NCBI RefSeq assembly: GCF_029211265.1
Contig: NZ_JARGEL010000026.1
Span: 1-64,000, forward strand
Direction: 5' to 3'
DNA from: Extensimonas soli
Lineage (GTDB): Bacteria > Pseudomonadota > Gammaproteobacteria > Burkholderiales > Burkholderiaceae_C
DNA: 64,000 nucleotides
This document shows, one piece after another, positions 6,002 to 25,325 of this stretch (positions within the stretch are counted from its first letter, which is position 1; each line of letters opens with the position of its first letter). Below the pieces are notes generated by a model that saw nothing but the letters and a program-made list of their open reading frames with translations, did no database searches and was not told the origin of the DNA. A program made the position numbers and the translations under genes.

Positions 6002-6200
6002 TGGCTGCTAGTGTAGTGTTTGATACTTGATGCGACAAATAAAACCGATGGATTTTTGGTCTGGGCAAGGCGCAAACCGCAGCGATACCGGGTGGTATCG
6101 CGAGGATTTGCAACGCGGCCCGGGCCGAAAAGACGCGGTTTTATGTCGCAGATAGCGTCGAACACTACACTAGTGCTTGTGTATCAAGCACTGGCAGCTA
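6002..6200. repeat. Comamonadaceae-type palindromic intergenic repeat, split by a MITE
   Basis: Joining 6002-6011 to 6174-6200 rebuilds a palindrome of the form GGCTGCTAG/TGCTTG...CAAGCACTGGCAGCTAT. This matches the other intergenic repeats in the window at 14631, 19171, 22856 and 25111. The family core contains CTAG, and the element at 6012-6169 was inserted exactly there. The palindrome lies between lpdA and zapE. Confidence 0.7.
6012..6169. mobile_element. MITE-like element, 158 bp, CTAG target duplication
   Basis: The ends are TGTAGTGTT and AACACTACA. The similarity continues inward as an imperfect terminal inverted repeat of about 35 bases that includes GCGACA and AAAACCG on both sides. 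CTAG occurs immediately outside each end (6008-6011 and 6170-6173) and occurs once in the rebuilt target, so it is a four-base target duplication. A smaller palindrome (GCGATACC/GGTATCGC) lies in the centre. There is no open reading frame, so a transposase would act in trans. A CTAG duplication fits the YTAR target preference of IS5-family elements, but the family assignment is inference. Confidence 0.7.
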
Positions 6201-25099: not shown

Positions 25100-25110
25100 T
25101 TGCATATAAA

Positions 25111-25325
25111 AATAGCCTCTAGGAGCCTGTCGGACTTTGGAATCGTCGGCTGCGAATGCGCCGCAGCGGCCCATTTTTTACCGTCTTCTTGCCCCATAGT
25201 CCCGCTATGGGGCTGCGAATCCGGCAAAAACTGGTCTCGCTGGGGCGCATTCTCGCTTTCGACGCCCAAAGTGCGGCAGGCTCCTAGCGCCCGTGTATCA
25301 AGCGCTGAAGCTATCAAAAGATTAG
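25111..25325. repeat. Palindromic intergenic repeat split by a second MITE
   Basis: Joining 25111-25122 to 25288-25325 rebuilds AATAGCCTCTAG followed by CGCCCGTGTATCAAGCGCTGAAGCTAT, a copy of the family repeat. The CTAG core is again the insertion point, here of the element at 25123-25283. Confidence 0.6.
25123..25283. mobile_element. MITE-like element, 161 bp, CTAG target duplication
   Basis: Ends are GAGCCTGTCGGACTTTGG and its near complement (CCAAAGTGCGGCAGGCTC), an 18-base terminal inverted repeat with two mismatches. CTAG lies directly outside both ends (25119-25122 and 25284-25287). The centre holds a perfect CCCCATAG/CTATGGGG hairpin. There is no coding sequence. It is unrelated in sequence to the element at 6012, but has the same size, same target and same host repeat. 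Confidence 0.75.

Follow-up and report, generated by a model that had tools for sequence, protein, structure and literature searches.

A CTAG-flanked 161-bp MITE of Extensimonas with a candidate IS1182-family partner, in-frame intragenic copies and a probable constraint on its RNA fold

Two elements in the window (the whole 64,000-nt stretch of DNA analysed here) interrupt palindromes of the same kind, each at a CTAG, which raises the question of whether the palindrome itself attracts insertion. The first, M1, is a 158-bp MITE at 6012-6169 (plus strand) with ends TGTAGTGTT..., and the second, M2, is a 161-bp element at 25123-25283 with ends that differ from those of M1. This arrangement had been noticed in a preliminary description made from the window, and re-reading the ends, flanks and palindromes of both elements upholds it. 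M2 is placed on the minus strand, which is its conserved "sense" or RNA strand. Its 18-bp inverted ends, with two mismatches between them, read GAGCCTGTCGGACTTTGG from 25123 (25123-25140, plus strand) and GAGCCTGCCGCACTTTGG on the minus strand (25266-25283), the element closing with CCAAAGTGCGGCAGGCTC, last base 25283. CTAG borders it on both sides, at 25119-25122 and 25284-25287, and with these tetramers included the terminal arms are 22 nt long and 91% complementary. An inner hairpin stem at 25154-25252 (arms 25154-25168 and 25238-25252) encloses an apical stem, GCCCCATAG...CTATGGGGC, and the whole element folds as a single hairpin far outside chance (RNA -97 kcal/mol, z -10.8; DNA z -10.5). 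The host site is a degenerate copy of the palindrome AATAGC...CTAGCGC...AAGCGCTGAAGCTAT, its left and right parts lying at approximately 25106-25118 and 25288-25322, between a ThiS-family gene (PF02597; 24818-25099, plus strand) and a convergent short-chain dehydrogenase gene (PF00106; 25339-26193, minus strand). The AATAGC...AAGCGCT palindrome is a common intergenic repeat of the source genome.

M2 is a MITE, as first described: it has no transposase gene, its ends are inverted, and a search with an asymmetric inner pattern found at least 87 dispersed copies in the 3.44-Mb source genome, at about 96% identity and ending in one of two variants, GAGCC and CAGCC. The host belongs to the Comamonadaceae and is Extensimonas-like; dozens of copies are also present in its two nearest sister genomes, Extensimonas vulgaris DSM 100911 and E. 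perlucida HX2-24. In a family-wide sample, recognisable relatives were found in 8 of 120 genomes, the source genome included. Shorter elements of 85-107 bp with ends alike in kind and CTAG-like flanks occur in related Comamonadaceae. The mobile family is unusual, but the copy in the window is an ordinary, intergenic one.

To ask how often palindromic CTAGs are occupied relative to others, elements were excised in silico, palindromes were located by profile, and each CTAG was classed. The tetramer is rare, as had been suspected: in 850 kb of the source genome it is depleted approximately ten-fold, with 267 occurrences where base composition predicts 2,683. Within this sample the palindromic CTAGs are occupied in 9 of 36 cases and all others in 42 of 207 (p=0.51); the latter comprise other intergenic sites (27/99; p=1 against palindromic) and coding sites (15/108). 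About one fifth of the CTAG sites in this 850-kb sample hold M1 or M2. When the three Extensimonas genomes are taken together (2.03 Mb), 13 of 82 palindromic CTAGs are occupied compared with 104 of 493 non-palindromic ones (p=0.30), of which 31 of 261 coding sites and 73 of 232 other intergenic sites contain an element. The last of these comparisons is significant in the opposite direction (p=0.006): palindromes are used less than other intergenic CTAGs. The proposal that the palindrome is a preferred target is therefore not borne out, the insertion frequency there being no higher than at CTAGs elsewhere. That palindromes take insertions at all follows from their intergenic position and their richness in a tetramer that is scarce elsewhere. 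Edges of other MITEs form a further target class, with seven nested events in 850 kb in which the two elements have one CTAG in common. This is as target duplication predicts, and a CTAG lying within the inverted repeat without duplication is unlikely for the same reason. Given the rarity of CTAG, palindromes, MITE edges and scattered CTAGs would all take copies.

The two elements appear to depend on different enzymes. A candidate partner of M2 in the source genome is a 1,526-bp insertion sequence present in two copies with CTAG flanks and ends CAGCCTGTCGGACTT, whose product is a 452-residue IS1182-family transposase (NF033551, E=1e-114). M2 and this IS have 14 bp in common at each end, bases 2-15 of the M2 terminus being identical, and their interiors are unrelated; M2 as a simple internal deletion of the IS is ruled out by the restriction of the match to 14 bp per end. 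The genome that holds M2 thus itself contains an IS of this family that matches its termini and its flank repeat. Full-length IS1182 elements with identical or almost identical ends, likewise flanked by CTAG, were also found in E. vulgaris, E. perlucida, Pseudomonas, Endozoicomonas and Massilia glaciei, and a matching end was read at one end of an element in a sixth genome, a MAG. All of these genomes also hold the MITE. Conversely, the IS1182 match was absent from 4 of the 10 MITE-bearing genomes searched, and two more gave partial matches alone. The common ends and flanks in the full-length ISs examined suggest that an IS1182-family transposase moves M2 in trans, recognising ends of the form (G/C)AGCCTGTCGGACTT. 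Insertion would take place at CTAG or near-CTAG tetramers and would leave CTAG-like repeats on both sides. The link to IS5 drawn in the preliminary description is mistaken: the M2-like ends belong to an IS whose transposase is an IS1182 equivalog, below the cut-off for all IS5 models listed, and those of M1 are IS630-type, resembling sequence beside IS630-type fragments at two contig ends. M1 numbers about 25 copies in 850 kb and often abuts M2, with a single CTAG common to both. IS630 elements insert at TA, given as 5'-NTAN (PMC5678879), so CTAG as an M1 site is unsurprising.

Empty sites complicate this simple picture of the target. At the orthologous window site both sister genomes have the palindrome without M2, and the empty sites found lack exactly the element plus one tetramer. 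One correction applies to the CTAG duplication described for the window copy: the tetramer flanks M2 on both sides, but the unoccupied site in both sisters reads CCAG where the source genome has CTAG. Across 22 unoccupied M2 orthologues the tetramer is CTAG in four, and most of the others are one base off. Control CTAGs that hold no element kept the tetramer in 36 of 84 orthologues, and the contrast with the M2 sites (4/22) has p=0.047, a value uncorrected for divergence. More than half of the sister orthologues of unoccupied CTAG sites have a different tetramer, mostly CGAG, CCAG, CTGG or CTTG. These data fit either very fast CTAG turnover or an element that imposes CTAG on near-CTAG targets, and strict targeting of CTAG by M2 may be wrong. 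If M2 does impose CTAG, the occupancy comparison above reflects outcome, not target choice.

One form of the latter is that the element carries its CTAG with it, the 4-nt CTAG overhangs left by excision pairing with near-CTAG overhangs of the target, after which repair or replication leaves CTAG at one or both sides. The 18 of 22 empty orthologous sites without CTAG, mostly one base away from it, are consistent with this mechanism, as are the numerous asymmetric flank pairs and one site in E. vulgaris where the empty allele is CTAC and the occupied allele CTAG...CTAC. Set against them are the 48 of 84 unoccupied control sites that differ as well, which indicate fast turnover independent of the element, and the modest and divergence-uncorrected contrast between the two classes of site. 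We therefore regard a carried CTAG as rather unlikely, albeit the most probable of the rival readings considered here.

Beyond the Comamonadaceae, an exact search for the 15-bp ends spaced 148-176 bp apart recovered at least 113 stretches. Among the matches listed, 108 of 115 elements are 159-161 bp long and 71 of 115 have CTAG at both sides. The sources among these matches include Sulfuricella, Nitrosomonas, Thioalkalivibrio, Endozoicomonas, Pseudomonas, Pseudomaricurvus, Desulfobulbaceae, Geobacteraceae, Nitrospirota, Lentisphaeria and one MAG labelled Edaphobacter, many of them being MAGs in which single records may be mis-binned. A search of plasmids gave no match for two queries and one conjugative Pseudomonas plasmid for a third. 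This plasmid carries a relative (NZ_CP034782.1:140987-141145) that is 73% identical to a Pseudomonas copy, making it a possible vector for spread. A search of the literature for the M2 ends returned nothing relevant, the one full match inspected being a PCR primer.

The interiors of the family can be aligned. In 48 representatives there are 59 consensus pairs, 42 of them with compensatory change. For the 47 pairs that folding of either strand supports, 103 G·U stand against 26 A·C; since the 48 sequences are related, these counts are not independent. By column, the ratio is 21 to 5 (p=0.0025). The sense strand gives the better fold in 46 of 48 representatives. A DNA cruciform alone would not produce an asymmetry between G·U and A·C, which points to a fold in RNA. 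Compensatory changes that appear to hold the sense-strand fold across phyla, with G·U favoured over A·C, suggest that the element is probably constrained as RNA, e.g. as a hairpin within transcripts. Neither the window copy nor any of eight relatives credibly matched a model of Rfam 15, and identity with a known structured RNA family was rejected on that basis. The conservation of length and RNA fold across phyla suggests a widespread mobile RNA family missing from Rfam 15.

Within Extensimonas, the element also enters genes. M2 plus one tetramer amounts to 161+4 = 165 bp, or 55 codons, and in Extensimonas copies stops are absent from the sense frame read CTA G.. and from one antisense frame. 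Using gene calls from a home-made codon model, 44 of 125 M2 copies in the three Extensimonas genomes lie in called genes, and 43 of these 44 occupy the two open frame and orientation classes, whereas the frames of unoccupied coding CTAGs combined with random orientation predict 50% (p=5e-12). Unbiased tiles gave a similar result (26/29, p=2e-5). Of the three exceptions, two sit at the very end of a gene or in a questionable 5' extension, and the remaining one likewise lacks stops. Moreover, M1, which has stops, is intragenic in 2 of 41 cases and M2 in 29 of 89 (p=3e-4). The open sense frame is restricted to 161-bp betaproteobacterial members, and in genera other than Extensimonas few copies lie in long ORFs. 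Host gene families comprise MurD, PdxA, PfkB, TsaD, TsaC, GloB, MetC, GlmS, Mpl, WaaA, HemD, DapF, MltB, a UvrA-type protein and others; some of these are normally essential, and inserts fall within the conserved domains of such enzymes, with that of TsaD lying ahead of the domain. In an alignment, MurD of E. perlucida contains one clean 55-residue block that is missing from four relatives. The TsaD insert occupies the identical place in the source genome and E. perlucida, and has thus probably been kept since those two species split. In pdxA of the source genome (C21:94200-97800) two M2 inserts lie approximately 465 bp apart, both in frame, and tsaC (C17, near 197.6 kb) contains a 182-bp variant of M2 that also preserves the frame (182+4 = 186 bp).

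The frame and orientation statistics suggest that copies entering coding CTAGs in an open frame become 55-codon inserts that are translated and tolerated, the host protein retaining its function, and that copies in other frames or orientations would be purged. Amino-acid-level selection on the 55-residue peptide was not seen (pN/pS 0.89), private stop mutations in the insert are about as frequent as expected (3 vs 4.1), and the filter on inserts seems to be one of compatibility, not function. An AlphaFold2 model of MurD with its insert was poor throughout (mean pLDDT 56) and predicted no structure for the insert. Alternatively, inserts may be removed at the RNA level or bypassed by ribosomes so that normal proteins result, as might be imagined from the conserved, strand-specific RNA fold and from the position of inserts in conserved domains of normally essential enzymes. 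Removal would not need an open frame, yet every clear intragenic copy is stop-free, and we give this alternative a low probability.

The very strong hairpin and the frequent proximity of gene ends might also suggest a repeat recruited by the host, e.g. as a processing or terminator hairpin with a regulatory role, instead of a selfish element. Its positions, however, vary between sister species, copies also lie within genes and private mutations appear neutral, so that we hold host recruitment to be of low probability. Least probable of all is that the palindrome itself, as a hairpin or cruciform, is the preferred target, as for the IS1182-family member IS1272, which targets and replaces inverted repeats (PMC5678879): both window elements do sit in palindromes, but palindromic CTAGs are the less occupied class (13/82 vs 73/232 for other intergenic sites) and the empty/occupied pair at the window site shows no inverted repeat lost.

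Overall, these data make it likely that M2 is a MITE that depends on an IS1182-family transposase acting in trans, that it supplies tolerated 55-codon inserts to genes and that its fold is constrained as RNA. More tentatively, and with somewhat less than even confidence, we propose a cross-phylum family of mobile, RNA-structured elements of approximately 160 nt, mobilised by IS1182-type enzymes through near-CTAG overhang pairing, of which one lineage, present in high copy number, can place translated modules of 55 residues in proteins that are normally essential. Extensimonas is a free-living, culturable host in which a candidate transposase and dozens of host proteins occur together with empty alleles that are closely related, such that both the mechanism of spread and its effect at the protein level are directly testable.

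In-frame palindromic protein inserts are best known from Rickettsia. The Rickettsia palindromic elements are described as repeats of approximately 150 bp that lie in frame in unrelated genes and add a short peptide (Ogata et al. 2000, via PMC10969869). They are the closest precedent for M2, likened here by description alone, as both are palindromic inserts in frame within unrelated genes; M2 differs in its free-living Comamonadaceae hosts, CTAG flank repeats, candidate IS1182-family transposase and cross-phylum relatives. ERIC and Correia-type MITEs are similarly high-copy, transposase-less elements of 100-200 bp that form one long hairpin, and ERIC copies that lie within genes and contain ORFs have been described (PMC10969869). 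However, these MITEs are reported from Enterobacteriaceae and Vibrionaceae or from Neisseria, whereas members of the M2 family share exact termini across several phyla and have an IS1182 element as candidate partner. M1 resembles IS630-type MITEs in its ends and in the TA inside its CTAG; M2 has other ends and a partner from another transposase family, and M1, by contrast, is rare in genes. The presumed M2 partner has a transposase of the IS1182 family, in which targeting of palindromes is reported for some members (PMC5678879). IS1272 replaces an inverted repeat without duplication (PMC5678879), unlike the partner IS and M2, which sit at CTAG with flank repeats.
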